Shown here in pieces: positions 5,122-32,311 of a stretch of 64,000 nt of DNA (the stretch's first letter is position 1; the number at the start of each line of letters is the position of its first letter). Position numbers and translations under genes: made by a program. Origin of the DNA: Symbiodinium sp. CCMP2592 (Eukaryota > Sar > Dinophyceae > Suessiales > Symbiodiniaceae); the NCBI GenBank assembly GCA_905221615.1, contig CAJNDT010003057.1:580093-644092 (forward strand), read 5' to 3'. Below the pieces are notes generated by a model, which worked only from the letters and a program-made list of their open reading frames with translations, searched no databases and was not told the origin of the DNA.

Positions 5122-5123
5122 AG

Positions 5124-5999: not shown

Positions 6000-6014
6000 C
6001 AGAAGCAACGTGAC

Positions 6015-6749: not shown

Positions 6750-6780
6750 GGTTGAGTTTCAGGACAGTCAAGGAAACATT

Positions 6781-7605: not shown

Positions 7606-7638
7606 ACAGGACACAGTAGATTTGAACTTATTGAACCA

Positions 7639-8978: not shown

Positions 8979-10511
8979 TCATCTAGCTGAAAGAAGCTCA
9001 CTGGCCATTGCACTGTCAGGGATAAGTTCTGGTTCCGATGCTTCGTCCATGTCCTTGTTGCTGGTGCTGGAAGACGTTGGGTCTGATGCTGCTTCGTCCT
9101 GGTTCTCCTCAGGATATTCCTGTTCAAGTTCTTCTTCTGCTTTCCTTTTGCTCTGTGCTTGCTTGGCTTTGTTCTCTAAGTACGTTGACCTGGTAGGTCC
9201 TGATTTTCCTGCAGAGTCCCCGCCTTGGATGACAATCGGTCCTGAAGGTGCCGAAGGTGCCGAGTCCTGTCCCGACTGTTCCTGAGTTCCGGCTCCATCC
9301 ATGACAGGTGGTGCCTCTGCAACTGGTCCTGGGATGTTCTTCCTTGGGATATTCCTTGTTGTAAGTGTGGTATGCTTCACTTCCCAAGTGTGTATTCCTA
9401 CACTACTTATTCCTTTCACATCGAAGTGTTCCGTACAGCGTTTCGCGCTGCGGCTTGTTTTGATACCGTCCATGTGCCATGTAATGAAGAGGTTGTTGTC
9501 TGTTTTTCCTAAGAACACTCCTCTCAACCAAATAGGGTCACCTTTCCTATTGCCACGTGTTCCTGAACGATTGGTCAAAACCAAGGGTGGTTCGCCAAAC
9601 TCGGCGAGTTGGCCCTCGTAAGGGCGCCCGGCGATCCACTCGTAGGGCGTCACTCCTGTACCTGTGTGGCGATGGTAACTATTCAAGGTCCATGCCGAGT
9701 GCCTGAAAGCCCAACTGAAGATTGGATGGGAATGAGCAATATATGTTCCTGTTCTGTGTTCCAGGTGCCCAATCAAGGTTGTTCCTTGTCGCGTGATGGT
9801 TTGTATTGCTCTCTCTGCCATGCCCTTGGTTTCCTTCTGCCCACTGATGGCATCCTGTAAAACTGTTCCTAGGCCTAACGCTGCGCGTTGTTTCTGAATC
9901 ACCTGCTTCAGCTTCATCATTGTTCCTTCGTTGTCGGCCTTTAAGTTGATTGCTCCGTACTGCAGTTGGGTGCTCAAGTATGCGACTCCTTCACAAAGGT
10001 GTTCCACAAGGTCTTTTCCTCTAGATGCCGTAGGGATACAGATCATGTTCCTACTCCAAGAATCAACGCACACAAGACTTACTGCCGCTGGTGCCTCATC
10101 ATGACTTGTTCCTGTGAAACAGAAATCCATACAGAAAGTTGGTCTCGAAGATCTTTCCTTCTCAGGGTTCTCACGAAGATGTGGAGACTCTTTTCCTTTG
10201 CATGCTACACATGTAGGACACCACGATGCATAGGGCAAGTGTGTAAGATTGTGCACTGCAACTTCTTCTGGTTTGGGCTGCTTCTGTACCTTCAAGGGTT
10301 CTGCTTCAATGTATTCCTTGTACTTCTTCTGAGCTGTGCTGAGCTCCATGTGCCTTTCTGCTTCCATAATCGACCTACTGAGCCTTCTGAGGATCTCTTG
10401 CTTAGAACCAAACTTTGAAACTCCAAGGTCCTTGCAAAGTTCTCTGAGAGTCTTGAGGCTGTTCTGCTGGTTGGCCGTTGAATGTGAATGACAGTTCTCC
10501 TGCAAGTTCAT
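8979..10511 (-). pseudogene. Copia integrase (right arm) with extended C-terminus
   Basis: This 510-residue frame carries the SAP-like segment (LKTLRELCKDLGVSKF), HHCC zinc motif, D-D-E integrase core and an integrase C-terminal region with GTGVTPYEWI and NLFITWHMDGI. A low-complexity acidic tail follows. The start codon is artificial: an 8-nt deletion near 10475, relative to the left arm, throws the upstream 911-residue gag-protease frame out of phase, so in an intact element the two would be one polyprotein. About 250 residues more of the integrase side survive here than in the left arm. RT does not follow. Confidence 0.75.
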
Positions 10512-13137
10512 GTCGATGCTCTGGTGCTTGGGCCTCTGAGGTCTCTTCCTGTTCTTCTTCCTGTTCCGGGATTGTGTCCAGTTGATGAACCTTCTGTTCT
10601 GGTATTCTGGCCTTGGGGTTCACTGGTTCAATGAGTTCGAATACACTGCGTCCTGTCCATGACAAACCTCCTAGTGGTTCTGGGTTTCTGTGAGGCTCAT
10701 CCAAAGTCCAAAACTTATCATCCTCAAAGAAATCCTTGTTGATTGGTTCCTCACCATGAGCGTACCTATCTGGTTTGAGGTTCGTAATCTCCACTGGGAT
10801 GTCGTTGGTATCTCGAGGATTGAACAAGGTCTTTCTCAGTGAATTGTGGTACCTCGTGAGTGTCGTACCATCCATACTAATTGACCATGCATCTTCAGTG
10901 TACTCTTCAAACATTTTCCTGTCATCATCTTCCTTGGGTGTACCTATGAAGTTCAGTGGAAACTCTTTGAGAGAAACTAGCGTCAGTGTCCGGTACTCTT
11001 TACTGCCATCAAAGATTGTTCCGAATGGTTCCTCAAGTTCTTCGAACATTACACTATGGTGCAACAGATACCACTGGTCATCGTCCTCAATGAGTACTGC
11101 TCTATAAGCAAACTTCCCTGGTGGAAACATCAAGTAGGTTTCAACGTGCTCTGAAGTTCCTAAGCTGTAGTGGACTTGGTAAGGGTCTCTCCAGTTGGTC
11201 CAACCAACACGCTGTTCTTCAATGAGTTCCTTCAGGTTCTCACACAAGTATATGGGAATAGGTTTTGCTTCTGCTTCCCAGTTGACTGCTCTCACAAAGG
11301 CTTTTGTCGTAAGTGAGTTGTTGTTGTAGTTCACTGCGATCTTGGTTTTTCCTTCTGTGAGGAAAGTGCCTGTAGTTGTTCCATCTCTGAACTCCCAACC
11401 TTTCTTCAACAGTTTACCTACTGCCAAAAGAGGGTGCACAACCGATGAAATCAAGAACACTTCTTCAACCTTCACAATGTTTCCTTGAACATCCTGAAAC
11501 TCAACCTCAATGATCCTTTGATCTGAAACCTTGATTCGTGTTCCTTGTGCGTCTCGCAAAACCACCTTGGTAGTGTTAGGTGACTTTCTTCCATACTTCT
11601 TCATCCACATCAGTGCCAACGAAATGTCGGCTCCTGACTCCAGCACAACTTCGATCTCGCGAGTTCCTGAGCGTCTTGCTGCACGCACAAACCTGGTGCT
11701 TGTTCTTGAAGGTGCTGTTCCTTCAACACGGTTTCTCCTGGGAGGATGGTGACATCCATATTCGCATTCCTGCATGTTCGGATGCCAGGGTGTCTCATGA
11801 CAACCGTTGGGGCATTCATAGTAGTATCCACGATCTTGAGTTCCTACTGGGTTGATTCCTATGTGCCATTGCCACCATGCGTCATCACTCGCCTCATCGC
11901 AGTCCTGAAACTCATCATCTTCATCACCAATCCCAAACTCTTCTGTCTCACTCCTCTCTTCCTGAACTTCTTCACTAACAGCCCGCAAGACTCTTCCGAA
12001 GTACTCAATCTCGATCTCCTCTGAATTTTCACTCAACTCGAATTCCTCCGGAAAGCTTGTGGGCTCGTCTCCTATGTGGTACATGGAGACCATCCTAATC
12101 ACTGGTCTTTGAGTTCCTTGACTTGCTTGGCTTTGGCTTGTTGTGGTCTTGTTCGCTGAAGACGGGGCCTGATTAGAGGTAGCAGTAGCACTCGCTTGCT
12201 CACTTTGGCTTTCCAGGTCTACGTTCCTAGCTTGGTAACCCATGTCACGTTGCTTCTGTCTACACTGTGCCTCAAAGTGTCCGTACTTGTGACAGTAGTG
12301 ACAAACTCCTGTAGCTGCTTGTGCTTTTCCTTTACCTTTTCCTTTAGACCTGAAGAATCCTCTTCCTCGACCTTTGCCTTTGCCTTTGGAACCTCTGAAA
12401 CCTCGACCTCGACCTTTCCAGTTGCCTCGACCTCTACCTTTGCCAAAACCTCCAAAACCTTTTCCTTTCCCTTGGCCTTTACCGTCAAAGCCGAAACCTT
12501 TTCCGAAGTCCTTTCCACCTTTCTTGCCTTTTCCTTTGCCTTTACCTTTATGATGCACATAGCCTTTGCCGTGTCCTTTCCTACCTTTGTACCATGCTTG
12601 GTTGATGTCCATTGCTGCAAGACCACCATGATCGTCACCTTTGTCAATCAAGTCTGTAGTTGTTCGGTGAGGTGTTCCTTGCTGAGCTGACAAAGAGTTG
12701 GTCCAACGTTCGGTTGACTCGTAGTTCACAAGATACTGGCGAAGAGCTGTGTACTGGGTCTTCTCGTCAAGGTTAAGCAACAGGTGCCTTTTTACATCAG
12801 GTTTCATACCTTGGATAAGAGTAGACACTTTCAAGTTTTCTTGTACCTTTTCTCCTGTCGCCTTCTCGTACTTCTCTATGTGTTCCTCGTATTCGAGGAT
12901 GTTCTCAGCAATTCCTTTGTTGTGAGCAAACCTGTAGTTGAGGATGTTGTGAAACAGTTCCAGCGATCTTGCACGATTCGTTGGTTGGTATTCCTTCATC
13001 AACATACGGTAGGCTTCCATACCGTTTTCCTCTCCTACGTGCTTTACAACACGGTAAGGCCTTCCTTTGGTATATGAACAGAGAACACTGTACAGGCGGC
13101 GGCTAGCTTCCTTTGCTTCTCCAGACATCTCGCTCAT
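10402..13137 (-). CDS. gag: Copia gag-protease polyprotein (right arm), 911 residues
   Basis: This is the longest convincing coding frame in the window. It begins MSEMSGEAKEASRRLY, with the gag helical domain at 1-150, a GKGKG/RGRG RNA-binding stretch at 185-270, and a complete CCHC knuckle (CHYCHKYGHFEAQC) at about 280-295. An acidic region, a Cys/His cluster and the protease follow. The protease motif reads LESGAD instead of LDSGAD, so the catalytic Asp is Glu and the enzyme is probably dead. The last about 25 residues are out of frame after an 8-nt deletion; the original protein would run on into the integrase. Only a few residues in gag differ from the left arm. Confidence 0.8.
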   Translation of the reverse strand: MSEMSGEAKEASRRLYSVLCSYTKGRPYRVVKHVGEENGMEAYRMLMKEYQPTNRARSLELFHNILNYRFAHNKGIAENILEYEEHIEKYEKATGEKVQENLKVSTLIQGMKPDVKRHLLLNLDEKTQYTALRQYLVNYESTERWTNSLSAQQGTPHRTTTDLIDKGDDHGGLAAMDINQAWYKGRKGHGKGYVHHKGKGKGKGKKGGKDFGKGFGFDGKGQGKGKGFGGFGKGRGRGNWKGRGRGFRGSKGKGKGRGRGFFRSKGKGKGKAQAATGVCHYCHKYGHFEAQCRQKQRDMGYQARNVDLESQSEQASATATSNQAPSSANKTTTSQSQASQGTQRPVIRMVSMYHIGDEPTSFPEEFELSENSEEIEIEYFGRVLRAVSEEVQEERSETEEFGIGDEDDEFQDCDEASDDAWWQWHIGINPVGTQDRGYYYECPNGCHETPWHPNMQECEYGCHHPPRRNRVEGTAPSRTSTRFVRAARRSGTREIEVVLESGADISLALMWMKKYGRKSPNTTKVVLRDAQGTRIKVSDQRIIEVEFQDVQGNIVKVEEVFLISSVVHPLLAVGKLLKKGWEFRDGTTTGTFLTEGKTKIAVNYNNNSLTTKAFVRAVNWEAEAKPIPIYLCENLKELIEEQRVGWTNWRDPYQVHYSLGTSEHVETYLMFPPGKFAYRAVLIEDDDQWYLLHHSVMFEELEEPFGTIFDGSKEYRTLTLVSLKEFPLNFIGTPKEDDDRKMFEEYTEDAWSISMDGTTLTRYHNSLRKTLFNPRDTNDIPVEITNLKPDRYAHGEEPINKDFFEDDKFWTLDEPHRNPEPLGGLSWTGRSVFELIEPVNPKARIPEQKVHQLDTIPEQEEEQEETSEAQAPEHRHELAGELSFTFNGQPAEQPQDSQRTLQGPWSFKVWF

Positions 13138-13296
13138 CTTTATATCTTGTCATCCTTCAAGTTCCTTTCAACGATGTCCATAATCTTGACCATATTGGAA
13201 TCCACTGCTCCAAGCCAGATCCGCATCCTGTTCCTGAACTCTGTCCAGCCACTCTTCTCTTCTTGCCATGTTCCTGGTGAAAATGCTTCAGGGCTC

Positions 13297-13866
13297 TTAA
13301 TCAACTTGTTTGTGCAACTCCACTTCTCCCGGCTTTCTTTGTTCCTTTACTGCTTTCTCCAACGATGCTCCTATCTCCTCAAGTGTTGTTGCTGCGTTGG
13401 TGTGAGCGTCTGCTAACGCTGTCTGTGCTGCTTTCTGTTGTTCCTGTACTGCTGTAAGTGTTTCCTGAAACGCCTGTGTAAGTCCTGCTTCTCTTTGGCT
13501 TCCTGAAGCTGCTGAGCTCCTGATTTCCTCTGCTAGTGTTTGTATTCCTTGTAGTGTCTGTGCATTGATCTCTGCAAGTGCTTTCATTGCGTCCTCCATT
13601 GCTTTTGCTGCTTCAAGGTTGCTGTACACTAGTGCTGCTAAAAGTAGTGACTTGCACTGCTTCCTGCTCACTGCTTGGGCTCTCCTTTCTCCTCTTGTTT
13701 TCCTTTGATGCTTTGAGCATCTGCTGGCTTCTGCGAAAAACACACTAGAATAGTACGACAGGGTGATCCAAGTAATCAGTCCGATTGGGGTTCCTAAGAA
13801 CACTGCTATGCGAATTCCTTGAAATACAACTCTGTTGGAAATGACTTCCTGAACTATCACATGCAC
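13297..13866 (-). CDS. TM plus coiled-coil ORF of copia element (right arm)
   Basis: This 189-residue frame contains a likely membrane segment (IRIAVFLGTPIGLITWITL) near its start and a long coiled coil rich in Ala, Gln and Glu (AMKALAEINAQTLQGIQ; QEQQKAAQTALADAH). It lies between the basic ORF at 13887-14588 and gag. The frame is open here but broken in three in the left arm. It ends shortly after KPGEVELHK through a frameshift; the left arm continues to MDIVERNLKDDKI just before gag, so this too is slightly damaged. Function unknown. Confidence 0.6.
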   Translation of the reverse strand: MHVIVQEVISNRVVFQGIRIAVFLGTPIGLITWITLSYYSSVFFAEASRCSKHQRKTRGERRAQAVSRKQCKSLLLAALVYSNLEAAKAMEDAMKALAEINAQTLQGIQTLAEEIRSSAASGSQREAGLTQAFQETLTAVQEQQKAAQTALADAHTNAATTLEEIGASLEKAVKEQRKPGEVELHKQVD

Positions 13867-13886
13867 GACGTCGTGAAACTTCTTTC

Positions 13887-14588
13887 CTACATTGCTAGCT
13901 TTTCTACGAAACTCTGAACATGTTCCTGCACAAGCTTTCTCAGTACTTCTCCTTGTTGTTTTACTAGGTACCTAGGGGCGTAGCCTGACTCAAGGCTCTC
14001 ACTCTCCTGGTTCTCGCTGTTCCGGTTGCCGTCCTTGTGCTCTTTCGTGTAGTACTCGCCGGTCACGCTAAAGACGTTGTAGAGCTCGTTCAGCACTTGG
14101 TTCGCGCGCAGAAAAGCATACGGTACCATGACTTTTCCTATCTCCACGTAGTCCTTGATCGTGTACGCGTTCTCGTTCCTGATCGTGTTCACGTTGGCGT
14201 CGTCGGGGTTCACGATGCACGCGTTGTAGCCTTCCTGGTAGTACTCGCCGTACACGTCGTAGTTCCTGTAGCGGTTCCGGTGCGTATTGGGCTTTCTCGA
14301 CCTGCTCACCCAGGTTGCCATCAGCTCGGTCTCGTCGCTCTCTTCTTGTACTTTTCGCCTTGTGCTTCTTTTGCTCTTTCTCCGGGTCGTATCCTTGGAG
14401 GCTTCATCCTCTCCAAGGGCAAGTTCCTCCTCGACCTTGTAGTGCCTATTGTCGCCGAGGGCCTGTCGCTCTTCCACTGTTCCTGGGATCATCATCATCC
14501 CGCGAAACGTTGCGAGGCTTCCCAGAATCACTCCACACAGCAAGGTCACAAACGCTGCTGTGAAGCGACACTTCGTTTTCCTGACCAC
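13887..14588 (-). CDS. Basic/acidic ORF preceding the coiled coil (right arm)
   Basis: This 233-residue frame starts inside the second hydrophobic segment of the two-TM ORF (RFTAAFVTLLCGVILGS). It then has a highly charged stretch (TTRRKSKRSTRRKVQEESDE), an Asn/Tyr-rich segment and a C-terminal helix (QQGEVLRKLVQEHVQSFVE). It looks like the continuation of the two-TM protein with a frameshift between. No known domain seen. Confidence 0.5.
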   Translation of the reverse strand: MVRKTKCRFTAAFVTLLCGVILGSLATFRGMMMIPGTVEERQALGDNRHYKVEEELALGEDEASKDTTRRKSKRSTRRKVQEESDETELMATWVSRSRKPNTHRNRYRNYDVYGEYYQEGYNACIVNPDDANVNTIRNENAYTIKDYVEIGKVMVPYAFLRANQVLNELYNVFSVTGEYYTKEHKDGNRNSENQESESLESGYAPRYLVKQQGEVLRKLVQEHVQSFVEKLAM

Positions 14589-14865
14589 GGTTTCCTTGTA
14601 GGCGTACTTCTCCGGGAAACATACACCGCAAGCTCCGTACTCTCCGGTGTCTGTGTTAGGTGTTCCTGTGGTACTTTCTTCCTCTCTTCGGGGCGATCAT
14701 CAACTCCGGCATGTGGTTGATGCCTTGCACATTCTGTTCCTGTTCTTCCTGTGTCCAAAGAGTCCACAGGGCACGAGCTGCGCAAGCCACGAGTGCAGCC
14801 ACGGTCGTTCCTAGGACTAGTAGCATCATCGCTGCCAAGGTTCCTGGAGGCAGCTCCGCTACCAT
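14546..14865 (-). pseudogene. Two-TM 5' ORF (right arm), frameshifted
   Basis: Frames 14656-14865 and 14546-14785 together repeat the left-arm protein at 3393-3782: MVAELPPGTLAAMMLLV with the first hydrophobic segment, then the RGRKYHRNT stretch. A frameshift after RNT splits the right copy before the Cys cluster. Confidence 0.55.
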
Positions 14866-15042
14866 GTTAAAGAACGGGCTTCACTACGGTTCCTACTCTC
14901 AAACTGAAGCGGTCACTTTTCCTTGTGGGTCGCTGTGTCCGCTGGGTCTCGAGCCTGCGCGTCACGGGCGTGAGTCCGGCTGTTCCTGTACATTAACTAC
15001 ACTGCGCTAGCTGTGTTACTGTTCCTGGCAGAATGTTTAACA

Positions 15043-15801
15043 CCTTCCCCTTAGGAACCTTAGCGGGACGCTCTTCCGGCGTGCAAGGCGAGCGGCGTGG
15101 TGAAGTGCCGCTCCTTGACACTAGCGTCGGAGGCGTGGACTAGCGCGGCTCCGAAGGTGTAGCCCGCTGTGGCCATCACTTTGTAAGCATGTTTGCGAAT
15201 AGCGTGCTCGTAGCTGAGCACAAGGTGCCACGGCGGGACTAGCGAGCCTGAGTCCGCACTGGACCGCAGGCCATAGCAGAAGTCTCCGAGGAGATACTCC
15301 TTGTAGCACTCGAAGAGGGCCATGGTGATGTCCTGTAGCTCTTCTCTGCCGGGGTGCCTTATAGCTGGATCATAATAGCGCGTTCTGCAGAACCGTTAGC
15401 CGCAGCTGCTCTGGCCCCTTGTTTTCTTCAGATCCCCGAACTTAGCGGTGAAGGCTTGGCGCGTGGCCATATAGTCCGTAGCGGGGATGGGCTTCGCCCA
15501 GTCCCGGACTTCATTGGTAGCTTCCGCTTCGGCGGGAGTTAGCGGTACCCCCGCCGCCTGAGCACGGCTGGCTAGCGACGTGCTAGGCTCAATAGCGAAG
15601 CTGTCTTTTAGCATCTTCTTGAGGTCGCTTTCGTCCGTAGCAGAGGCTGCGAACTGCGAACTTAGCGACGGTATCGATACCATTCGAAAATAGCTCGGAC
15701 TGGATAGCATCCGAGACTTTGTGTTGCACTAGCAGGAACCGCAGCTCGCTGGATCCGAGGGCTAGCTTCTTGGCTAGCTCCTCTCCCATGGTAGCAGGCA
15801 C
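15043..15801 (-). pseudogene. Gag fragment of GCTA-rich retroelement family
   Basis: Three frames on - give one protein in pieces. 15589-15801 starts MPATMGEELAKKLALG. 15396-15710 carries ASRAQAAGVPLTPAEAEA and VRDWAKPIPATDYMATRQAF. 15060-15323 carries WHLVLSYEHAIRKHAYKVM and KERHFTTPLAL. The second piece is homologous to 33369-33590 on + (REWAKPIAQTDYMA) and the third to 29192-29380 on + (WTLVISYEKAIRKFAYKQM). This is the gag of a dinoflagellate RT/RNase H retroelement. The MPATMGEE start is plausible but unproven. Frameshifts lie near 15640 and 15340. It abuts the outer end of the copia right arm, which may have truncated it before the zinc finger. Confidence 0.6.
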
Positions 15802-16980
15802 GGCCGGGCCTACGCCACCAAATGTTGAAATTGAGCATAAAGGAAAAAGCGGTGCCTGCTAGCAACTTAGGAGAACTATGTAGCTAGAGAGTGTGTCCTA
15901 GCGTGGAGGCGGTAGCACAATGTGACAAGCTGAAACCACACTGCAGTAGGGGACGGCGCTAGCCCCGCGAACCAGCCCCCCCGGCCCCACACTCTCTCTC
16001 TAGCTCTCCTCTTCTGTCTGGCTGCCGAGATGTGTGTAGCGTGCAACTGCTCCCTTGCACATGTAGCCGGCTGCAGGGATGCTTTTCCTGCTAGCGGTCG
16101 GCAGCAGAGGGCGCTGCAAAGGTAGCTCCACGGCTCCTTAGCGAGACCCAGTCTGTCGTGGGGGGATCTGTAGTTTCTCCTTTGGAGAACTTCTTGCAGC
16201 CATCGCAGCAGTGCGTGACCTTCCACCACATTCTGCGGTTGCAGGCCCGTAGCCCACAGACCTCACATGTGGTAGCACAGCGGAAAATAGCGGCATTGGA
16301 GTCCCAATGCCCTAGCGACCAGGTGCAGCGGTCTGGATACCACTGCGTGTAGCAGCTCGGCACAAACATAGCGAGCAACTGGTCTGCTCTCATTCAGCAG
16401 GGCCCTCACTCTGGTGCGAGCAGCGGCACATGAGGAGCGCGTCCTCGCGGGTTAGCTGGTGCAGCTGCTCCCCGTTGTAGATAGCTTCTTTGGTTAGCCC
16501 CTTCCCCTTGCCCTTCTCGGAGCGCTGGTCCCAGGATCCTATAGCGGCCAGAGACCTCGGTCGATCCTGGACCAAGACAGCTCCAAGTAGTAGCAGGACT
16601 TGCCTTTGGGCAAGCTGTTAGCCGTTAGCGGGCCGCCCCATCCCCTTTAGCGCACAGGAAATCGGGGTGCCCTTGGCGTAGCGGATGGCGTTCGGCATGC
16701 CACCCGCGGAGCATCTCCATGTAGCGGTCCGATTCGTCGAAGAGCAGCGTCCACGTCCAGGCGAACACGTCTGGAGCTTTGTTATAGGGGATTCAGGGAG
16801 GCGCCGGAGCGCTTGTCGCGCCCCCCTTCTCTCTCCCTTTCCTCTCTGTGACCGTATAGGCCAGGAGGGGGTAGCGGCCGGTGGCGTCCTGCTGGCGTGA
16901 TTGGAGGAAGCCATAGCGGCCTCCGCCGGCTCTGTGCTGGAGGTAGCGGTGGGATCCCTCTCCGACGCGGCAGTAGTGGC
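15802..16980 (-). other. GCTA-rich 5' region of the retroelement, Cys-rich ORF remnant
   Basis: No intact gene. The word TAGC on + (GCTA on -) is very frequent, matching the family at 29-32 kb, so this is probably the 5' untranslated or promoter part of the element whose gag starts at 15801. One - frame (16091-16393) has a cysteine cluster (CEVCGLRACNRRMWW then CCDGCKKF) that could be a decayed zinc finger. Another (16390-16575) is basic. They do not join cleanly. Confidence 0.35.
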
Positions 16981-17045
16981 AGCCAGGCTGGCTTTGCTAC
17001 CACGGCTGCTTGGAACTCCCTCTCCGCAGCCTCTGTCTCCATACC

Positions 17046-17275
17046 TGATAGATCCAATGGGTGTAAATTTACACTTTACTCCTCCCTAAGAATTTACACC
17101 CTTTTGGGGTGTAAATTTACTCCCCCAGGGGGCGGATTTGGGGGTTTAAATTTATGTAAAGCAAGCCAAAAGGTTGGCCGACCCAAAAGGGCATATTTGT
17201 ACTTTTGGATCTGCTTTATCGTATGCTCCACATTTAGACACCCGTGGGGTCTACATTGGTCCATTGGATCTATCA
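17046..17275. mobile_element. MITE-like element with 15-bp perfect terminal inverted repeats
   Basis: TGATAGATCCAATGG at 17046-17060 is exactly complementary to 17261-17275. The 230-bp interior is AT-rich and non-coding, and contains a self-complementary GTGTAAATTTACAC and an 11-bp-arm hairpin around TTTTG near 17100. No clear target-site duplication was found at the ends. Confidence 0.45.
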
Positions 17276-17449
17276 AGCAGAGGTTGAGCCAACAAAAACA
17301 AGCACTGTGTGTGAGGGAATCCTGTTCCCGTATAACAAATACATGTGTCTTATACACAATTTGTGGGACCCAACGGCACATCCCCCCCTCTCTATACCCT
17401 TTCCCATTCCTGTTCCATCCTCTCCCTTCCCCTTCCCCTTTTGTGAAAA
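17276..17449. other. Pyrimidine-rich non-coding DNA
   Basis: A C/T-rich run at about 17385-17440 leads into the tandem repeat. No gene seen. Confidence 0.5.
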
Positions 17450-17960
17450 GGGCCATCCAGCCCTTTCACCTGCAAAGCCACACAAAACACGTGCACAAAT
17501 TCTCTTATCTTCTCCTGTGCTATTCCAGATACATATCCACAATGGGCCATCCAGCCCTTTCACACTTTTGCAAAAGGGCCATCCAGCCGTTTCATTTGCA
17601 AAGCCTCACACAAAACACGTGCGCAAATTCTCTTATCTTCCTGTGCTATTCCAGATGCATATCCACAATGGGCCATCCAGCCCTTTCACCTGCAAAGCCA
17701 CACAAAACACGTGCACAAATTCTCTTATCTTCTCCTGTGCTATTCCAGATACATATCCACAATGGGCCATCCAGCCCTTTCACACTTTTGCAAAAGGGCC
17801 ATCCAGCCGTTTCATTTGCAAAGCCTCACACAAAACACGTGCGCAAATTCTCTTATCTTCCTGTGCTATTCCAGATGCATATCCACAATGGGCCATCCAG
17901 CCCTTTCACACTTGCAAGGGCCATCCAGCCCTTTCACTTGCAAAGCCTCACTCTTTTTCC
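17450..17960. repeat. 220-bp nested tandem repeat, about 2.3 copies
   Basis: Units begin GGGCCATCCAGCCCTTTCA at 17450, 17670 and 17890, an exact 220-bp period. Each unit holds three subunits starting GGGCCATCCAGCC: a 94-bp form, a short 31-32-bp form ending CTTTTGCAAAA, and a second about 94-bp form with GCCGTTTCATTTG. The frames across it are by-products of the repeat. Confidence 0.9.
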
Positions 17961-18166
17961 AACGGCTGCGATCTGTCGTCGCTTTCTCTAGAGCCAGGAC
18001 GTTGGCTTTACCAGCCCTGCAATATGTACAAAATGAAATTACATGTGTGATGTATACATCCGGGGCCCTCCAGCCCTCCTTGTGCTGTCCTGAAATATAT
18101 ACACAATGAAATTCTACATGTGTGATATATACATAGGGGGCCCTCCAGCCCCCCTTGTGCACGTCG

Positions 18167-18205
18167 TGCAGCCCAGAAGCGACCTCTGGTCGCTTCTGGG
18201 CTGCA
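18167..18205. repeat. Palindrome 1
   Basis: 18-nt arms, perfect, loop TCT. Outer stem TGCAGCCCAGAA shared with palindrome 4. Confidence 0.9.
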
Positions 18206-18219
18206 GAAAACACAACATC

Positions 18220-18266
18220 CCCAGAAGAAACAAGAGATCGAGGCTCGATCCCTTGTTGCTTCTGGG
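18220..18266. repeat. Palindrome 2
   Basis: 23-nt arms, 21 paired, 1-nt loop. Related to palindrome 5. Confidence 0.85.
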
Positions 18267-18284
18267 CAGACGGGCAAGCCAGAA

Positions 18285-18334
18285 CCCCAGCAGCAAGAGA
18301 AGCATTCATTGGAATGTTTCCCTTGCTGCTGGGG
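18285..18334. repeat. Palindrome 3
   Basis: 23-nt arms starting CCCCAGCAGCAAG, 21 paired, 4-nt loop. Confidence 0.85.
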
Positions 18335-18431
18335 CCTCCTTGTGCTGTCCTGAAATATATACACAATGAAATTCTACATGTGTGTGTGTGATGTATACAT
18401 AGGAGGCCCTCCAGCCCCCCTTGTGCACATC

Positions 18432-18490
18432 GTGCAGCCCAGAAAAGACGAGAGATCGAGCCTCGATCTCTCGTCTTTTCTGGGCTGCAC
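18432..18490. repeat. Palindrome 4
   Basis: 29-nt arms, perfectly complementary, single C at the centre. Starts GTGCAGCCCAGAAAAGACG. Confidence 0.95.
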
Positions 18491-18503
18491 AAGACACAAC
18501 ATC

Positions 18504-18550
18504 CTCAGAAGAGACAAGACACCGAGGCTCGGTCTCTTGTCTCTTCTGAG
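18504..18550. repeat. Palindrome 5
   Basis: 23-nt arms starting CTCAGAAGAGACAAG, 22 paired, 1-nt loop. Confidence 0.9.
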
Positions 18551-18570
18551 CTGCTCCTGCTTCGACAGCA

Positions 18571-18618
18571 GGTTCAATGTGCGGGACGAGGTAGGTACCT
18601 CGTCCTGCGCATTGAACC
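18571..18618. repeat. Palindrome 6
   Basis: 23-nt arms starting GGTTCAATG, 21 Watson-Crick pairs; the two exceptions would be G-U pairs in RNA from +. 2-nt loop. Confidence 0.85.
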
Positions 18619-18630
18619 TTTGGGGATGTT

Positions 18631-18677
18631 GTCGCCACCTTCAAGGCCTTCTGCAGGAAGGCTTTGAAGGTGGCTAC
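18631..18677. repeat. Palindrome 7
   Basis: 21-nt arms with two mismatches (GCCACCTTCAAGGCC core), 5-nt loop. Outer stem shared with palindrome 9. Confidence 0.85.
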
Positions 18678-18692
18678 AATATCCACCATGGT

Positions 18693-18749
18693 GCAGGTCG
18701 GAAGCGACAGAAGCTCGAGTCGCTCCAGCTCCTGTCGCTTCCGACCTGC
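18693..18749. repeat. Palindrome 8
   Basis: 18 perfect pairs (GCAGGTCGGAAGCGACAG), then a less perfect inner stem of 9 with two mismatches, loop TCG. Confidence 0.85.
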
Positions 18750-18759
18750 GCCAGACAGT

Positions 18760-18817
18760 GATGTAGCCACCTTCAAGGCGTTTTTGCACTGCAAAAAGCC
18801 TTGAAGGTGGCTACATC
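18760..18817. repeat. Palindrome 9
   Basis: 27 pairs with a single bulged G at 18780 and a 3-nt loop. Starts GATGTAGCCACC. Confidence 0.9.
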
Positions 18818-18856
18818 ATCCGTTCCTGCTCCTGCTGCGGTCGCTTCGGAGCTGCA

Positions 18857-18944
18857 GGTCATCTGCACATGGTGCAAGGGCGGAAAAGCAAAAAGAAGAG
18901 CTTCTTCTTTTTGCTTTTCCGTCCTGCACCATGTGCAGATGACC
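18857..18944. repeat. Palindrome 10
   Basis: Arms of 42 and 41 nt with one bulge and one mismatch, 5-nt centre AGCTT. Starts GGTCATCTGCACATGG. Confidence 0.95.
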
Positions 18945-18984
18945 AGCATCCGTTCCTGCTCCTGTGCTGCGGTCGCTTCGGAGC

Positions 18985-19080
18985 TGCAGGTCGTCTGCAC
19001 ATTGTGCAAGGGTGGAAAAGCGCCAAGAAGAGCTTCTTCTTGTCGCTTTTCCGCCCTGCACAATGTGCAGACGACCTGCA
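18985..19080. repeat. Palindrome 11
   Basis: Arms of 46 and 45 nt with one bulge and two mismatches, 5-nt centre AGCTT. Closely related to palindrome 10, with paired substitutions. Confidence 0.95.
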
Positions 19081-19229
19081 TCCGTTCCTGCTCCTGCTGC
19101 GGTTCCTGTTCCTGCTCCTCGGGCTGGGCCTTCACACCTTGATCCATTCCGAATGCATAGCCAATCGGTTCTTCATGTTCAGCTTGAAAGATGCTTCTTT
19201 GCGGCTCACTCCTTTCACTCAAGAAGCCA

Positions 19230-20040
19230 TCATCTTGCCCAGCTTCCCCATATAATCCTTCCCCCTCCAACAACTTGTACTGGGTGCATCTCTCCACTCC
19301 TCTCCACTGTATGTTGTGTAGCATGCACCTTCGAGGTCACGTTGAACACTCGAATGTTTTTTCCTTGTAATAATCCGACAAATGAACATAAAGTGCACCG
19401 AAATTCCTGAAGTTCTGCACCAGCTGTCGTGCTGCATCCGCCGGCAATGCAAAATGTCCTTCCGACACAGGGTACCGGCTCAGGATTTGTTCGAAGTCCT
19501 TGTTCAGTTCCGGCAACACTGCTACTTTCTTGTACTCCTCCGTGGCCGGTGCAAAATTGTTCCACATGTCCACGAATGTAGCACACAACCCTTTGATCTC
19601 ACGGGCCTTGCCCTTCAGCTTCGGGAAGTCTGGAACATGGACAGCTTGCACAGCCGCTGCTGGTACCTGTTTCCGATCCTGTTACTCTTCTGATGCAGTT
19701 TTATGTACTTCCACAAATCCTTGAGGTTATCCAATGGTTCCTTGTCCATGATGTGTCGACACAGCAGTTCCAGTACTGATCCGAATACATGCTGGCAGTA
19801 GCCCAAGTACTTCGTATGCATGAGATCGTAGTGCACGTGACAGGCCGTCAATCCTCCCTTGAATAATTTGCATTTTGTACGTTTGCCCCATTGCATCCAG
19901 GATTCCGGTTCCCACTGTGTATCCCTCCAAGGGGCAGTCTCCGAAAAGTCCTGCCACGTCGTAGGTCCGGTCCTGCTGCGCCTGCACACAGGGCGGTGTG
20001 TACAGTATACATATACGGCCCACACATACTCGTGCAATCC
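19230..20040 (-). pseudogene. Fragment of repeated dinoflagellate protein family
   Basis: Frame 19615-20037 encodes GLTACHVHYDLMHTKYLG, FGSVLELLCRHIM and DNLKDLWKYIKLH. The next frame, 19337-19651, continues with FPKLKGKAREIKGL, GHFALPADAARQLVQNF and FGALYVHLSDYYKE. They join with a small frame change near 19640. I recognise a multicopy family in dinoflagellate genomes with a D-x2-H-x4-G motif followed by a G-S-x-L helix; a second member lies at 34.7-37.3 kb on +. Biochemical function is unknown to me and I propose none. The N-terminal half (including the expected RLHGDEG region) is not visible upstream, so the copy is incomplete. The palindrome array lies about 150 bp past its 3' end. Confidence 0.45.
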
Positions 20041-20580
20041 TCCCTCTAGACTGATATAACTCTCGAGAATTTCAGTCGAATCATTCAGAGGTGTAGGACT
20101 CTAAGAGGATTTAGGCTTTACTTCTGGCCTTAACAGAAATCACATGTGGGGTTTGTGGCTTGGCCCCAATGCCACGCAGTAAACTCACAGCAACATATTG
20201 TGGCCACCAGCTGGATTCGCTATCCCCAGGTGCACCACTGCAGGTACGTTTGCACTGCAAGCACAGAAGCGTCTTCGTTGGCTGGAGACTTCTGTGTTGC
20301 ACTCCAGCCCCCTGCAAAACGGATTGATTGAATGGCAGTAAACCTTGGCAAACAGGTGTTCCACACACACACACACACACACACCCCGCGAACGGGGTAG
20401 CCACTTGTGGCGGAAACAATGCTTGAAATATGTGCACATTTTCTGCACTCAGCACCTAAGCTCGATCAAATAGTGAAAAGAAGCATTGCTTAGCATCCCA
20501 ATAATTGGGTATGCACCTTACATGCTATTAATGAAAACGGCCAGTGAAAAGACTGGCAAGACTAATTACATGCAGAAACT
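20041..20580. other. Non-coding, with a CA microsatellite
   Basis: No supported gene. A short (CA)n run lies at about 20362-20385. A weak inverted repeat (CACAGAAG with CTTCTGTG) sits near 20258-20295. Confidence 0.5.
20362..20385. repeat. (CA)n microsatellite
   Basis: About twelve uninterrupted CA dinucleotides. Confidence 0.95.
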
Positions 20581-20586
20581 TAGCTT

Positions 20587-20901
20587 TCATGGAGAGACAT
20601 CTCGCCGTCTTTTACGAGGCGACTGGGAACACGAAGTCTTGCTCTCAGAAATGGTAGTCGTCTCGGTCGATTCTGGGTTTTGGTCCCAAAGTTTATCCGC
20701 AGCAAGGCGATTCTGGATCCACTGTTGTGTGGCAGGGAACCACGTTTTCCACCAGCGGTCTTGACCATCGGTTGTCGTGCTTTTGGACCAGTAAAAACGC
20801 CACGAAATCTGCGGGGACCGAGATCTGCTGCGTTCCGACATGCTGGACAGACTAAACTCCACTGCAAGCCGCAAACTAGGAAACACTTCAAGAACTTGCA
20901 A
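20587..20901 (-). pseudogene. Arg/Ser-rich ORF fragment, end of retroelement
   Basis: The 104-residue frame contains MSERSRSRSPQISW and a Trp-rich segment (DRWWKTWFPATQQW), ending SPRKRRRDVSP. It may be the last piece of the element extending from 29.1 kb on -, or the start of another copy. Function unknown; weak call. Confidence 0.25.
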
Positions 20902-20974
20902 CGCACCGGAGCAAAAAGCATTTAAAGACTGCAGAGTTATTTTGGCTTAGCCTTGCAACTGCTGAGAAGCTGCT

Positions 20975-21496
20975 TCACTGCTTGGTGGGCCCAAACTCAT
21001 CCTGGATGAGTTTAACAGGGCACAAATGCTTCAAAACATAGTGGCAGGTGCACCTGTAGCCACTGCGAGCCTGCATTTTAGCGGCTGCTTTGCCACGAAA
21101 CTGATATGGTTGTGGCACATTGGCAGGCGGCTTGACAACCCCCGGTAGGGGGTATGTAACTTCCAAAATGGGATCAAAGAATTTCGGAGCATCGGAAGCT
21201 GTTGGTTGAATCTCCGCAGAGGTTTTAGAAGTCTTCTTGGACTTCTTTTTCTTTTTCTTCTTCTTCTTCTTTGTACCATCATCGTCCTTAGGACGTTTCT
21301 TGCGCCTTTTGGAAACTGGCTCAGATGTCACATCAAAAGCAGAATGCCACGAAGAAGTCGACGAAACAGGTGAAGGATCACGAGGGCCAATGGGTTGGTC
21401 CATGGCCACCGCAAAAGAGGCATCGCAAGAGCCACAAACTCCTACGGCAAAGGACTTTTCCTGACATAGCTTTGCATGTGCAGGTTGTTGCAGCAA
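20975..21496 (-). pseudogene. Lys-rich C-terminal segment of retroelement ORF B
   Basis: The frame contains MDQPIGPRDPSPVSSTSSW, a run of ten lysines (a bipartite-like basic tract) and YRCTCHYVLKHLCPVKL near the end. It follows the 281-residue segment in the same direction with about 130 bp between. It is probably part of the same protein or an adjacent exon; the poly-Lys comes from a CTT/TTC repeat on +. Function unknown. Confidence 0.35.
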
Positions 21497-21623
21497 TCAG
21501 AAAAGCACATAAACACGTAGCGAAATGTTTTCCTGCTGCACGAATTGATTCAGCTTGCGGCTGCGAAAGCAGCGGCTGCTGCCATGAGGTCTTCTTCCTC
21601 AGGTTCCTCTACATCTGGCAGCT

Positions 21624-22618
21624 CTATCTTAGGGGTTGCAGGATTACCCCATGGGCCCCAGCTGTCGTCAGGAGGGGCATCTGCCAGAGCCAAAGTAGGC
21701 TCGTTACCGACAGCTCGGGGCCTAGTTCTACGGCGTTGTCGGCTCTCTTGCTGAGGATAGTCAGCTTTGCTTCGTTCTGAAAGAACAAAGACAAAATCAA
21801 TGCGAGCCGCCGCGAACCTAATTGCCCACCGTCTGTCCGAAGAGCAGCTGTGGACCAAGGCATGAAATCTCGCCAGATTGTTCTCATATCTGGTGCATGC
21901 GTTCTTGCCCCTGATATGGTTGCTCGGCAATAAGCCTGCAAAAACCACTCAAGAACAGTTCTTGGTTGAGTGGTAACACTTGCAGGCGAGCTGTACAACT
22001 CCTGCGCCCCAATTGGGGTTTGTTGTACTTCTGCCGTAGAAGGAAAACGTATCCAAGTAGGTAGGATCTTGCCCGTAGCCAAAATTCCTGTGACCCCTTC
22101 TCTGGTAGTGGCATGTGCCCAGAGATGCCAGTTTTGCTGGGCCAGGGGTGGGCCCGGGAAACCTGTACATCTGAAACGGTAGCCAACTACGTTTTCTTCT
22201 ACATCATGAAACATAGAGGCACCTTCTTCGAAGTGCCTCTCATAATGAAGTCTGGACTGCAAAATGCAGTCCACGAAGCCGAAGAATTCCTCCCGGCCTA
22301 TGGTGTTCGGTGGCACCGGCTCTGGAAACAAACTGAGCAAAAACCGAGCACATCTTTGTCTCTCAGGGTATTTGAGGGACGCGAAAGGGCGTTGGTACTT
22401 GCGAACAAGTGCCGCCTTGGCTGCATTGCTTCGCAGTCTCGCAGTGCTTGCCACGGTGCCATGACCCACTGATCCGGAAACGGCGACGTCAGAAGTTGCT
22501 GACGATAAAAGAGGTACTGGCTCAGGGTGGTCATCCCTCCCGGAATATGATCCACTGCCGAAAATCCTGACAGCTGGATTTCCAGCTGATCCTCCACATC
22601 ATTGATATTGGCAGACAT
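21624..22618 (-). pseudogene. Retroelement ORF B, globular part with ART-like segment
   Basis: Frame 22298-22618 (MSANINDVEDQLEIQLSGF; GGMTTLSQYLFYRQQLL) runs by frame change into 21624-22469, whose 281 residues include RSNAAKAALVRKYQRPFAS and LKYPERQRCARFLLSLFPE. Near 22120 comes WHLWAHATTREGVTGILATG. The last motif resembles a segment (W-x-HATT-x2-G-x2-GIL) that I recall from proteins linked to dinoflagellate retroelements and that weakly resembles the start of ADP-ribosyltransferase-like folds. It lies downstream of the RT gene on the same strand. Function is unknown; the ART comparison is a guess from pattern. Confidence 0.4.
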
Positions 22619-23285
22619 AAGGCCACGAAAAATTGATCATCAATCTGTTGTTGGCTTTGCGATGGAGCCAACTGATTGGAGGCCGATGACCCTGTCTTAG
22701 CCGGCTTTGCCGGTTTGCCCGGACCTGGGAGATCCGCTGCTGGGGCTCTTGCCTGCGGCACCCCCGGTTCCGGTGCCTTGTTGGACTTTGCCAGCCTCGG
22801 CGGTCTAAGAGGTACAGCTGGCCGCCTTAAATCTGGAGTTCCAGGAGGTGGAAAAGAAGGAGGCGGCAGTGGCGGAGGTGGTGGAAACCAGTAGGCAGAA
22901 ACATTTCCAGGGGAGGATGATGCGGAGCCGGCGGTGCTGAAGGTGGCGGCAAAACTGGCCTTGGTGGGGGAACCCAGGGCGCCGGTGCTCGCCAATTGCC
23001 CGGTGGATACATTGGCTCCTCCCTTCTTGATCTGCCCCGCATGGGTGTTCGGCTTCGCCGATGTCTCCTTGATCTCCCTCGGGATCTTTCATCACGAAAA
23101 CGGGAGGGTGATCGAGAGCTATATCGTCCACGATGTGACCGGGTCGCTGGTCTGGGCCGTGGATGAGGACGGGGCTCTTCCGCAGGAGCCGGCAGTGATA
23201 ATATAGGTGCCGAAGGGCTTGATCCTTTGGATCCTCCCTTACTCAATGTTTCACCACAGAAAAATTGAAACACATAGGAAGCCAT
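22531..23285 (-). pseudogene. Retroelement ORF B, Ser/Arg- and Pro-rich N-terminus
   Basis: Frame 22827-23285 starts MASYVFQFFCGETLSKGG and contains RSHRGRYSSRSPSRFRDE, RGRSRRHRRSRTP and a proline run. Frame 22531-22995 covers the next part (PPPPPLPPPSFPPPG; QLAPSQSQQQIDDQF). A frame change lies near 22870-22990. SR-rich, proline-rich tracts are expected of an RNA-binding ORF of a retroelement. It starts about 160 bp after the RT stop at 23443, so the order is RT first, nucleic-acid-binding ORF second, the reverse of ordinary LINEs. Confidence 0.4.
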
Positions 23286-24082
23286 GGGTGAGGCACAAAG
23301 GATGCCGAACTATTGAAGCTGCCACGGGCCAAGCTTTCAGTGGTGGGAACTGGTTCAAATGCGAAAAGGCACTGAAACTTCACAGTAGGCAACAAAGTCC
23401 GAATTTTGAAGCTTTCAGATCAACATCTCAGCAGGGAAACCCCTAGCTATATACAGATCGCGGAGTTCCTGCAATTGATGTTTGCGACTACTCGGAGGCC
23501 ATGCATACTGTACAATCAAGGCTTTCCGAGATAAGTAACTTGAAACTCGAATGGACCAACTCCCTGCTGATCGTGGATTCCTGATAGACCAGGCTTTGTC
23601 TGGTTGCAGGTAAGTCACAGTCCTGTTGGCCATGTTGAGCCGGAAGCCCAGAAATTGATGATTCGTAACTTCTTCCAGCTGGATGGTCCCTCCATAGAAA
23701 GAGAGGTGTTGAAAATCTTTCATGCATTGATGCGACAGAAAGGTCTCGTCGCATACAACGAGTCGATTGTCAACATACCTACAGACAAACAGTTCCGAAG
23801 CTTGGTTGTCGAAAAACCTAGCTGAACTCAGGAACTGATGCCATTCTCTTTGCCAACAAGATTCTCTTTGAATCACTGGAAGGCTGCTGAGTACCGGGCT
23901 GATTTGATTGCCTATACACGTGCCCCGGTGTTGCCTGAACAACAGGCCAAGAGTGGTGAACACTCCTGCTTCAAAGGAAGTCTGTACAATGGCAGTCAAG
24001 TCGGAGACATGAAGAAATCGGGGTACCGTATTTTTGTTGTCAATTTGTTCTGGTTTTTTCTGTCTATTTTTATGGTTTTAGG

Positions 24083-24480
24083 TTGAACGCAAACGAAAGA
24101 AAGAAGGAGAGAAACGGACGCCGGAAAGAAAGAAAGGAGCAAAGAAACAAACAAAGAAAGCTAGAAAGGAAGACACCAGGAAGAGGAGAAAGAAAGAAAG
24201 GACGAAGGACAGAAAGACAGGAAGGAAGGAACGAAGGACGACAGAAAGAAAGAAAGAACGAGGACGGGAACAAAGGAAGAAAGCAAGAAAGCAACACACC
24301 AGAATGGGGAGAAAGAAAGGAAGGAAGGACAGAAGGACAGACAGAAGCAAGGAAATAAGAACGCAGGAATGACAGAGAGACAGAACAGAAGAAATGAATA
24401 TCGAAAGACAGAAAGCTAGCAAGGACGACCAGAAGGAGTGATAGAAAGAACGGAGCAAAGAAAGAACCCAAGAACGAAGG
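24083..24480. repeat. Purine-rich GAAAGAAGG-type tract
   Basis: About 400 bp of nearly pure A/G on + with loose GAAAGAAAG and AGGAAGGA repeats. A long purine strand of this kind can form triplex DNA. Confidence 0.85.
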
Positions 24481-24529
24481 CAGGATATTTAGACAGCAAG
24501 AAGCAAAGACCAGAGACCCCGCTGTTTTG

Positions 24530-25325
24530 AGCTGTGTGCAAGCTAGCTTGCTTGACAGCATAGACGGCATTGTTGAAACCCACCCTGCGTAAAATATAAG
24601 TCTTTTTGAAACAATGCCATTCACCATGCAAAGAGTCTCTTTGCAAATGCAAAGCCTGCCCCGGGCGTGCGAGAGTGCCGAGCTTGCTTGACAGCATATA
24701 TGCGTTTTGTTGAAAACCCCACCATGCGTGCAAATGGGGGGGCTGCGCCCCCCCCCCCCCAACCCCCCCCTGCTGTGTCAGCCTTGTGCCGTGCCAGGTT
24801 GCATGACAGCATAGGAGTCGCGACAGCACATACGCATGTTTTAACCAGCCACGCGAGCATCATGCTTGCAAATCGGGGGGGCTGCGCCACCCCAACCCCC
24901 CCACTGCTTTAAACCATGTGCAAGCTTGCGTGACCGCAGCTTTGCTTGACAGCATATATTTTTGTTTAAAACCAACCATGCGAGCATCTTGATTGCCGCC
25001 CTTAAATCCCCCGGCCGCATGTGATTTGTGGTAAACCAGCCATACGAGGATCGTGATTGCAACTGGAAGGGGTTGCGCCCCCCCCCCCCCCAACCCCCCC
25101 CCGCTGCTGTAAGCCGTGATTGCATGACAGCATAGGAGTCGTTTTTGAAACCCGCGATGCCTAGGATATCCTAGGATGAATCTTTGAATTAGAAACAACA
25201 CCCTTCACCTTGTGAAAAGTGTGCTTGCAATCGGGAAGCATGCGGGCGTGCGAGAGTGGCATGCTTGCTTGACAGCACATACGCGTTTTTTGACCAACCA
25301 TGCGAGCATCATGCTTGCTAATTGG
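24530..25325. repeat. Degenerate interspersed repeat with TTGACAGCATA and C-tract hairpins
   Basis: TGACAGCATA or TGACAGCACATA occurs at about 24553, 24688, 24814, 24946, 25125 and 25268, usually followed by GTTTTNAAACC-like sequence and CATGCGAGCAT. Three copies are followed by a G-run, CTGCGCC or TTGCGCC, then long C-runs near 24730, 24880 and 25075. No gene. Confidence 0.75.
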
Positions 25326-25343
25326 GGAGGCCGCGAGCCGGAA

Positions 25344-25510
25344 TTCCCCAAGAGCTTGACGCAGGAACAAGCCCCGAACACTGGAATCTCCCAATAGCTT
25401 GACGCTCAAGCAAACCCTGAACAAACTACACTCCCCCGACAGCTTGACGCACAAACAAACCCTGAAAACTAGAATGCCCCCAATAGCTTGACGCACAAAC
25501 GAACCCATAT
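25344..25510. repeat. About 55-bp tandem repeat
   Basis: Four diverged copies each contain AGCTTGACGC, then CAAACCCTGAA or similar, then CCCC (A/G) AC/AT. Confidence 0.8.
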
Positions 25511-25754
25511 CCCGCCAAACCTTTCAAACATAACCTGGCCGCCGAACCTTAAAGAACAAGACTCCACCCAGCAGCAACAACAACATGAACACCAAGAGCA
25601 GCAGCAACACCAGTAACAAATAACAGCAAAAGGCATGCAACCACAACGAGAAAAACAGGAAGAACAGCAACAACAATGACACCAGCAGCAGCAAAATGCA
25701 AAAACAGCACCAACACCAGCACCAGCGCCAACACCACCACCAACAACCACAACA

Positions 25755-25833
25755 ACTATTATTATTACTACTACTACTACTATTACTACTACTACTACTA
25801 CTACTACTAGTACTACTATCACTACTACTATCC

Positions 25834-25887
<54 letters not shown>

Positions 25888-26690
25888 TTACCATTGCTAT
25901 TGCTATTGTTATTGCTATTGCTATTGCTATTGCTATTACTATTGCTATTGCTATTACTATGACCATTACTATTAGTATTACTCTTACTCTTACTCTTACT
26001 CTTACTTTTTCTCTTACTATTACTATTACTATTACTATTACTATTACTATTACTATTACTATTACTATTACTATTACTATTACTATTACTATTATTATTA
26101 CTATTACTATTGCTATTGCTAATACTATTACTATTACTATTACTATTACTATTAGTATTATTATTACTATTACTATTACTATTACTACTACTATTGCTAT
26201 TGCTATTGCTATTGCTATTGCTATTACTATTACTAGTACTAGTACTAGTACTAGTACTAGTACTAGTACTATTACTATTACTATTACTTTTATTATTTCT
26301 GTTACTGTTACTGTTACTGTTACTATTACTATTACGACTACTACTACTACTACTACTATTACTATCACTGTTATTATTATTATTACTATTACTATTACTA
26401 TTATTATTACTATCACTATTACTATTACTATTACTATTACTATTACTATTACTATTACTATTACTATGGCTATGACTATGAGTATGACTATGACTATGAC
26501 TATTGCTATTGCTATTGCTATTGCTATTACTATGACTATGACTATGACTCTGACTATTACTATGACTCTGACTATGACTATGACTATTACTATTACTATT
26601 ACTATTACTACAACTACCACTACCACGACTACTACAACTACAACTACAACTACAACGACAACAACAACATCAACAACATCATCAACACCA
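25755..26690. repeat. 0.9-kb compound triplet/hexamer microsatellite
   Basis: The block is built from ACT and ATT triplets, mostly ACTATT, with zones of GCTATT, ACTCTT, ACTAGT, ACTGTT and ACTATG. Every variant keeps the 3-bp register, so long frames (TITITI on +, VIVIVI on -) stay open throughout. These are not genes. Confidence 0.95.
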
Positions 26691-26774
26691 GCAACAACAG
26701 CAACACCACGAAATCCGTACAAAATGCGAAAATGTACGGTAAAGCCGATTTCCCCGAGGAATAACCAAGGTAAC

Positions 26775-31680: not shown

Positions 31681-31687
31681 GCGCGTG

Positions 31688-31868
31688 GGGAGGGCTAGCC
31701 AGAGGCTAGCGACAATCTCCAGGCTAACTGGGATTTATGCGACATCCATGAAAAAGGAGAGTTGTCGCGCGCTACTGCTTGTTAGCTCGCTGTCGTCTCT
31801 CGGCTAGTACGACTACTCTAGCTAGTTCCTACACGGAGGATGTAGGGGATGGTGGTGGGCTAGATGGG
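31688..31868 (+). repeat. 180-bp direct repeat, copy 1
   Basis: Starts GGGGAGGGCTAGCCAGAGG and ends GATGGTGGTGGGCTAGATG. The second copy lies 443 bp downstream, with about three differences. It follows directly on the RNase H frame, so it may be the element's 3' untranslated or terminal repeat. Confidence 0.9.
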
Positions 31869-32310: not shown

Positions 32311-32311
32311 G

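Follow-up and report, generated by a model that had tools for sequence, protein, structure and literature searches.

Within the 64-kb stretch of DNA analysed here (the window), a segment of about 0.9 kb is filled by successive inverted repeats with long stems and very small loops. The question raised by this locus is how such a row of palindromes arose, and what has kept the two arms of each stem paired while the stems differ from one another in sequence. A first-pass annotation had described eleven different palindromes in a row, and had offered as explanations a source of small RNAs, the end of a cruciform-forming element, or repeated template switching at hairpins.

An array of eleven palindromes

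An inverted-repeat search of the region and of the whole window confirmed the eleven palindromes and their order. They occupy positions 18167–19080 without overlap; their arms are 18–46 nt long and their loops 1–5 nt, with the exception of the 8-nt loop of U9.

18167–18205: U1, perfect 18-bp stem, loop TCT
18220–18266: U2, 23-bp stem with 2 mismatches, 1-nt loop G
18285–18334: U3, 23-bp stem with 2 mismatches, loop ATTG
18432–18490: U4, perfect 29-bp stem, 1-nt loop C
18504–18550: U5, 23-bp stem with 1 mismatch, 1-nt loop G
18570–18619: U6, 24-bp stem with 2 mismatches, weakly linked to other units
18624–18684: U7, 28-bp stem with 3 mismatches, paralogue of U9
18689–18753: U8, 31-bp stem with 3 mismatches, an arm motif in common with U1, U5 and U11
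18759–18818: U9, 26-bp stem with 1 mismatch, 8-nt loop, paralogue of U7 with a different core
18853–18948: U10, 46 pairs (2 mismatched), one-base bulge, 3-nt loop GCT, in the first 132-bp tandem copy (18833–18964)
18985–19080: U11, 46 pairs (2 mismatched), one-base bulge, 3-nt loop, in the second 132-bp tandem copy (18965–19096)
18820–18858, plus strand: spacer CCGTTCCTGCTCCTG..., repeated at 18950–18990, its first 15 bases again at 19082–19096

U4 is the stem for which 29 perfect pairs around a single base had been reported. Hairpins were scored as the number of matches minus twice the number of mismatches, with a threshold of 14. All eleven hairpins of the array scored between 17 and 29, and the only other hairpin in the 64-kb window to reach the threshold, the twelfth, lies in a microsatellite (26234–26283, score 19). 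In 20 random sequences of 10 kb, simulated with a first-order Markov model of the window, none reached it and the best score was 12; nor did any occur in 27 viral loci totalling 229,455 bases, which served as a control of convenience and are not matched to this genome. The stems contain 18 mismatches in approximately 318 aligned pairs, not counting those columns at the ends of U10 and U11 that are unpaired and hold 6 more. The left arms together contain 100 A, 99 G, 73 C, and 45 T, a composition that we leave uninterpreted because the units are related.

Among the search results from the open-licence literature, no title or opening of an abstract describes such an array, and the search yielded no paper joining dinoflagellate, template switching, and inverted repeats. 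The available text of a survey of inverted repeats across the whole tree of life (PMC13155455) does not contain the word dinoflagellate.

Kinship and duplication of the units

Similarity among the right arms of the eleven units and two pieces of the spacer was judged against shuffled arms (78 pairs, 400 mononucleotide shuffles each); the p values given below are uncorrected, come from the best 40 rows of the 78 pairs, and have a minimum possible value of 0.0025. A first family links U1, U2, U4, U5, U8, U10, U11, and the spacers, directly or through one another, by an arm motif written around GTCGCTTC and CTGCA. U10 enters this family through U11 and, more weakly, through U8 (p 0.01). U7 and U9 make up a second family, U3 is similar to U2 (p 0.005), and U6 is weakly linked to U11 in inverted orientation (p 0.02). 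The palindromes may be called different in that their sequences have diverged, but most of them fall into these two families of diverged copies.

Two tandem duplications take in parts of the array. The 132-bp copies carry U10 and U11, and the spacer noted in the first-pass annotation, CCGTTCCTGCTCCTG, is part of them. Exact copies of CCGTTCCTGCTCCTG are found three times in the window, twice inside the array and once at its right edge (19082–19096), just behind which lie two further copies with 2 mismatches. In its second half the spacer is similar to the motif found in the arms of several palindromes. The larger duplication is 80% identical between its copies:

18075–18267, plus strand: first copy, 75-bp repeat with U1 and U2
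18335–18551, plus strand: second copy, 75-bp repeat with U4 and U5

U1 and U4 have 12 outer pairs in common. In a MAFFT alignment, 22 of 26 columns agree between U1 with its loop, starting at position 18180, and the right arm of U4. The folding axis of U1 is offset by 9 nt from the U4 axis, and the inner left arm of U1 pairs with the counterpart of the outer part of the U4 right arm. On its sequence, U1 looks like the U4 right arm folded anew about this shifted axis. The middle pairs of U7 and U9 are likewise in common and their cores are different. These two cases agree with the earlier proposal that cassettes had been copied with the inner stem replaced, but it does not extend to U2/U4/U5 or to U10/U11, which have their inner stems in common as well.

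Paired arms change together

A permutation test for compensated changes was applied to four comparisons between paralogues, namely U10/U11 and the pairs U2/U4, U2/U5, and U4/U5, the last three overlapping as comparisons within one set of three units. All changes were read from paralogues at a single locus, and their direction is unpolarised by an outgroup. Among 45 counted pairs, U10 and U11 differ by 4 compensated double changes (p 2e-5, or approximately 2 in 100,000 trials), and 4 further pairs are altered on one side only. Among 23 pairs, we found 3 compensated double changes for U2/U4 (p 1.8e-4), 3 for U2/U5 (p 8e-4), and 4 for U4/U5 (p 1e-5). In all four comparisons, changes in one arm are mirrored in the other more often than under permutation, as in inverted repeats that evolve by template switching or arm conversion.

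Two of the four double changes between U10 and U11 (G-C to T-A and A-T to C-G) are transversions on both sides and could not have been bridged by a G-T wobble pair. In U2, U5, and the core of U4, compensated changes fall at pair positions 2, 8, 10, 13, and 19 of 23, and at each of these one unit departs from the other two; uncompensated changes fall at positions 9, 16, and 17. The single loop base is C in U4 and G in U2 and U5, and is thus complemented. Inversion of the spacer would have this result, and a point change would look identical.

More change in stems than in flanks in two comparisons

The 132-bp copies also allow the stems to be compared with the sequence around them. These copies differ from each other at 12 places, every one of them inside the 90 paired columns that were counted. 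The remaining 42 columns are free of differences; two of them make up the 46th pair, itself unchanged. Counted by event, with events defined by the analyst and rates that rest on few substitutions, changes between U10 and U11 affected 8 of 45 pairs and 0 of 42 columns (p 0.006). The second comparison, of U2 and U5 with the flanks of their duplication, gave 6 of 23 pairs and 5 of 107 columns (p 0.004) on similarly few events, with U1, U4, gaps, and a 6-nt indel excluded from the count.

Compensated changes in stems are commonly interpreted as a sign that selection acts on the structure of an RNA. In the present case they occur in a repeat without demonstrated function, and the stems are altered more than their flanks. 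A structure maintained by selection should evolve more slowly than the sequence around it. The faster change of the stems, together with the double changes that wobble pairing cannot bridge, therefore favours rewriting at the level of DNA. The array is, in our reading, a short and diverged tandem repeat of palindromic monomers whose stems are rewritten one arm from the other by template switching or hairpin conversion, a reading to which we assign a probability of roughly 0.55. Template switching at hairpins is the best supported of the three explanations in the first-pass annotation; compensated changes, replaced inner stems, a complemented 1-nt loop, a shifted axis, and the excess of stem over flank changes in two comparisons all speak for it. 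On these grounds we infer that the process is one of template switching or conversion and not of selection for a structure.

By this mechanism a few founder palindromes would have been multiplied by tandem duplication, and the 132-bp and approximately 260-bp copies of such duplications are present in the array. During replication or repair a strand would fold back, and one arm would serve as template for the other, either by template switching or by conversion within the hairpin. Rewriting of this kind would restore pairing after a mutation and convert single mutations into compensated double changes. It could also flip small loops, and an occasional shift of the folding axis would replace the inner stem. 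The array would require no function for any of these steps. In that case the array may preserve the natural history of arm-templated rewriting, with several paralogues acting as replicates.

Several observations sit less easily with arm-templated rewriting. Unbiased conversion of arms should merely match the rate of change of the flanks, such that the excess in the stems is not a simple prediction of it; the excess needs rewriting that is mutagenic, flanks that are homogenised between copies, or diversifying selection on the stems. Similar double changes would also result if selection favoured any hairpin, irrespective of sequence. The reading is also weakened by the poor ties of U3 and U6 to the remaining units, and it leaves unaccounted for why eleven palindromes are found here and none elsewhere in the 64 kb apart from the microsatellite.

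Comparison with known palindromic systems

The mechanism has precedents for single inverted repeats. In yeast, the homogenisation of arms and the inversion of loops have been ascribed to template switching in the available part of the report (PMC8604942), and template switching has been proposed to create RNA stems and also, with less certainty on the authors' part, to maintain them (PMC8794818, also available in part). As in our array, the arms change together; loops may also flip, as the complemented loop base of U4 might reflect, and imperfect stems become perfect. Those studies deal with single inverted repeats or stems, whereas here eleven long stems stand in one array and change more than their flanks.

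In the mitochondria of Nematomorpha, long and nearly perfect inverted repeats are abundant and their arms undergo concerted evolution; the accessible portion of the report (PMC6649704) names template switching as one possible mechanism. Many long near-perfect repeats whose arms evolve in concert are a feature of both systems. In contrast to these mitochondrial palindromes inside protein-coding genes, the array is probably nuclear, lies outside any recognised gene, and is a 0.9-kb cluster with 18 mismatches in approximately 318 pairs.

Two further systems come from dinoflagellates or their parasites, each described here from the available text. Plastid minicircles of dinoflagellates have clusters of inverted repeats within their non-coding cores (PMC10781511, PMC10253752). 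These are small plastid circles, whereas our array lies in a 64-kb window with mobile-element-like genes; a minicircle core would belong to a small circle bearing a plastid gene, which does not fit this 64-kb window, whose longest ORF is a gag-pol-like gene. In the nuclear genome of the dinoflagellate parasite Amoebophrya, introners have inverted repeats of 8–20 nt at both intron ends, with direct repeats of 3–5 nt at the boundaries (PMC7789003). They resemble the array in forming hairpins and in lying in the nuclear DNA of a dinoflagellate, as the array probably does, but they are short terminal repeats of introns, in contrast to long stems with tiny loops set in a row. The inverted repeats of neither the minicircles nor the introners, as described in these sources, are closely like the array.

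Small-RNA precursors as the main alternative

The main rival to arm-templated rewriting is a cluster of siRNA- or miRNA-like hairpin precursors, whose transcript would fold into a row of hairpins to be cut by Dicer. Selection would then keep the pairing while the sequence diverged fast, as might happen in an arms race against mobile elements. Homologues of Dicer, Argonaute, and HEN1 are reported for Symbiodinium microadriaticum in the available part of a study (PMC3853145) that describes 21 small RNAs from fold-backs of 84–90 nt with a mean energy of −68 kcal/mol, 13 of the 21 having a perfect guide/passenger duplex. These precursors, from a dinoflagellate, are hairpins similar to the units of the array, being nearly perfect fold-backs and about as stable. 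The array is known from its sequence, and the available main text of PMC3853145 does not contain the words palindrom, inverted repeat, or tandem. Folded as RNA with a few flanking bases, on either strand, the units gave energies of −28 to −89 kcal/mol, with values from −78 to −89 for U10 and U11 and from −28 to −58 for the remaining nine, against the published mean of −68. U1–U9 span only 39–65 nt, which argues against such precursors.

Sequence comparison with the published small RNAs was suggestive at most. The best match among the 21, that of smb295 to the left arm and loop of U5 (18508–18529), covers 17 of 22 positions with 5 mismatches. Dinucleotide shuffles of smb295 alone reached it in 9 of 2000 cases, which is not significant over 21 tests, and a match as good as that of smb295 to U5 was contained in 4 of 200 shuffled sets of 21 small RNAs. 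Rfam had no family at gathering score anywhere in the window, so that neither Rfam nor these 21 small RNAs of Symbiodinium placed the array in a described small-RNA family. Counterparts of the arms elsewhere in the window were no commoner than for shuffled arms, with 5 loose matches against 1–9 in ten shuffles. The stem mismatches comprise 8 of the G.T and 3 of the A.C type; this excess has the direction expected for a selected RNA transcribed from the plus strand, though it is not significant (one-sided p 0.11). That stems are altered more than flanks in two comparisons also counts against precursors held by selection. Taking this evidence together, we consider a precursor cluster unlikely.

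A combination of the two readings also deserves mention. The array might be a working locus that keeps the hairpin and not its sequence, either a diversifying bank of small-RNA precursors or a set of structural sites of a mobile element, with new stems arising by template switching from arm to arm and by shifts of the axis. We regard this as a doubtful alternative. Should the hairpins be processed, they would show a protist making new small-RNA precursors serially.

Mobile-element-like sequence adjacent to the array

The array lies between tandem repeats and the remains of a gene:

17438–18160, plus strand: tandem repeats adjoining the array on its left, with 126/220-bp units at 17438–17951 and 75-bp units at 18016–18160
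19135–20127, minus strand: broken gene of a repeat-type protein family, with pieces in three frames

Minus-strand pieces of the gene in different frames (19821–19618, 19630–19358, and 19278–19135) have 85–92% identity to a related protein (P0001), and the piece in the third frame has 45% identity to it; a longer relative (P0007) extends the match to 20127 at 37%. The C-termini of P0001 and of another relative, P0002, coincide with position 19135, and a TGA stop codon follows at 19134–19132. The array starts approximately 50 nt past this stop, on the 3' non-coding side of the gene. The family may resemble DDE transposases.

This arrangement suggests that the array could be the functional non-coding end of a mobile element, with subterminal binding sites or folding signals that are palindromic by selection, and its position just 3' of the stop codon of a mobile-element-like gene and beside tandem repeats fits such a role. 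However, the gene is frame-broken, and membership of a transposon is unsupported: at cut-off, Pfam matched neither pieces of the window nor six relatives (P0001–P0006), and the AlphaFold model of another relative, P0008, made together with five relatives, was too poor for classification (mean pLDDT 48.7). DNA copies of the P0001 relatives were not found in the viral or genome contigs scanned. No 16-nt inverted repeat with up to 1 mismatch joins 15000–18166 with 20130–26000, a search that shorter or more diverged ends would escape. Binding sites would moreover be expected to have one common sequence, whereas the stems diverge. We consider an element end improbable.

A further alternative is an assembly or sequencing artefact, in which fold-back chimeric reads or amplification hairpins had entered the contig, and in its favour fold-back artefacts do generate perfect inverted repeats. 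The 18 mismatches in approximately 318 stem pairs and the compensated changes between tandem copies speak against it, since a single artefactual read should leave perfect arms and no families of paralogues; an artefact is unlikely on the sequence, and we give it only a very slim chance.

Other searches around the array gave the following. ORF 18773–19324 matched Cupin_6 below threshold (E 6e-4, 20 bits against a cut-off of 27), which was taken as compositional, and relatives of this ORF were not found in viral contigs. DNA from 18000–20100 had no relative among plasmids, and a 22-nt piece had no match in genome contigs. Exact matches of motifs from the neighbouring repeat and the spacer in 20 + 7 viral contigs were taken as chance because none of the 27 loci shares more with the window (blastn, 1e-3). 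The tandem repeats at 17438–17951 include two near-identical 243-bp copies (99.6%) that hold GGGCCATCCAGCCC, which resembles a motif in the 75-bp repeats beside the array.

The longest ORF in the window (10402–13137) has 148 related proteins. Among the best 120 of the 148, two are Symbiodinium and three Amphidinium carterae by name, with low identity over short parts; the closest relatives among the matches listed have 73–76% identity. Some of the listed relatives bear PF00098, PF14223, or PF07727, which we take to be zinc-knuckle, gag, and reverse-transcriptase families, and the ORF was named gag-pol-like because of these domains. Judged by these relatives, the window is probably dinoflagellate nuclear DNA; the dinoflagellate spliced-leader pattern was absent from it with up to 3 mismatches allowed.

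Further repeats were observed elsewhere in the window. Positions 3216–8752 and 9525–15042 form a 5.5-kb inverted repeat, 93% identical, around a 772-bp centre; both arms contain a gag-pol-like gene, which is open over 911 amino acids in the right arm and split into several ORFs in the left. A triplet-based microsatellite of approximately 0.9 kb (25755–26705), made up of ACT, ACTATT, and ACA units, has several frames open. Within 31686–33002, direct and inverted repeats are clustered at approximately 32.3–33.0 kb, and a 181-bp direct repeat, 98% identical, is found at 31686 and 32131.
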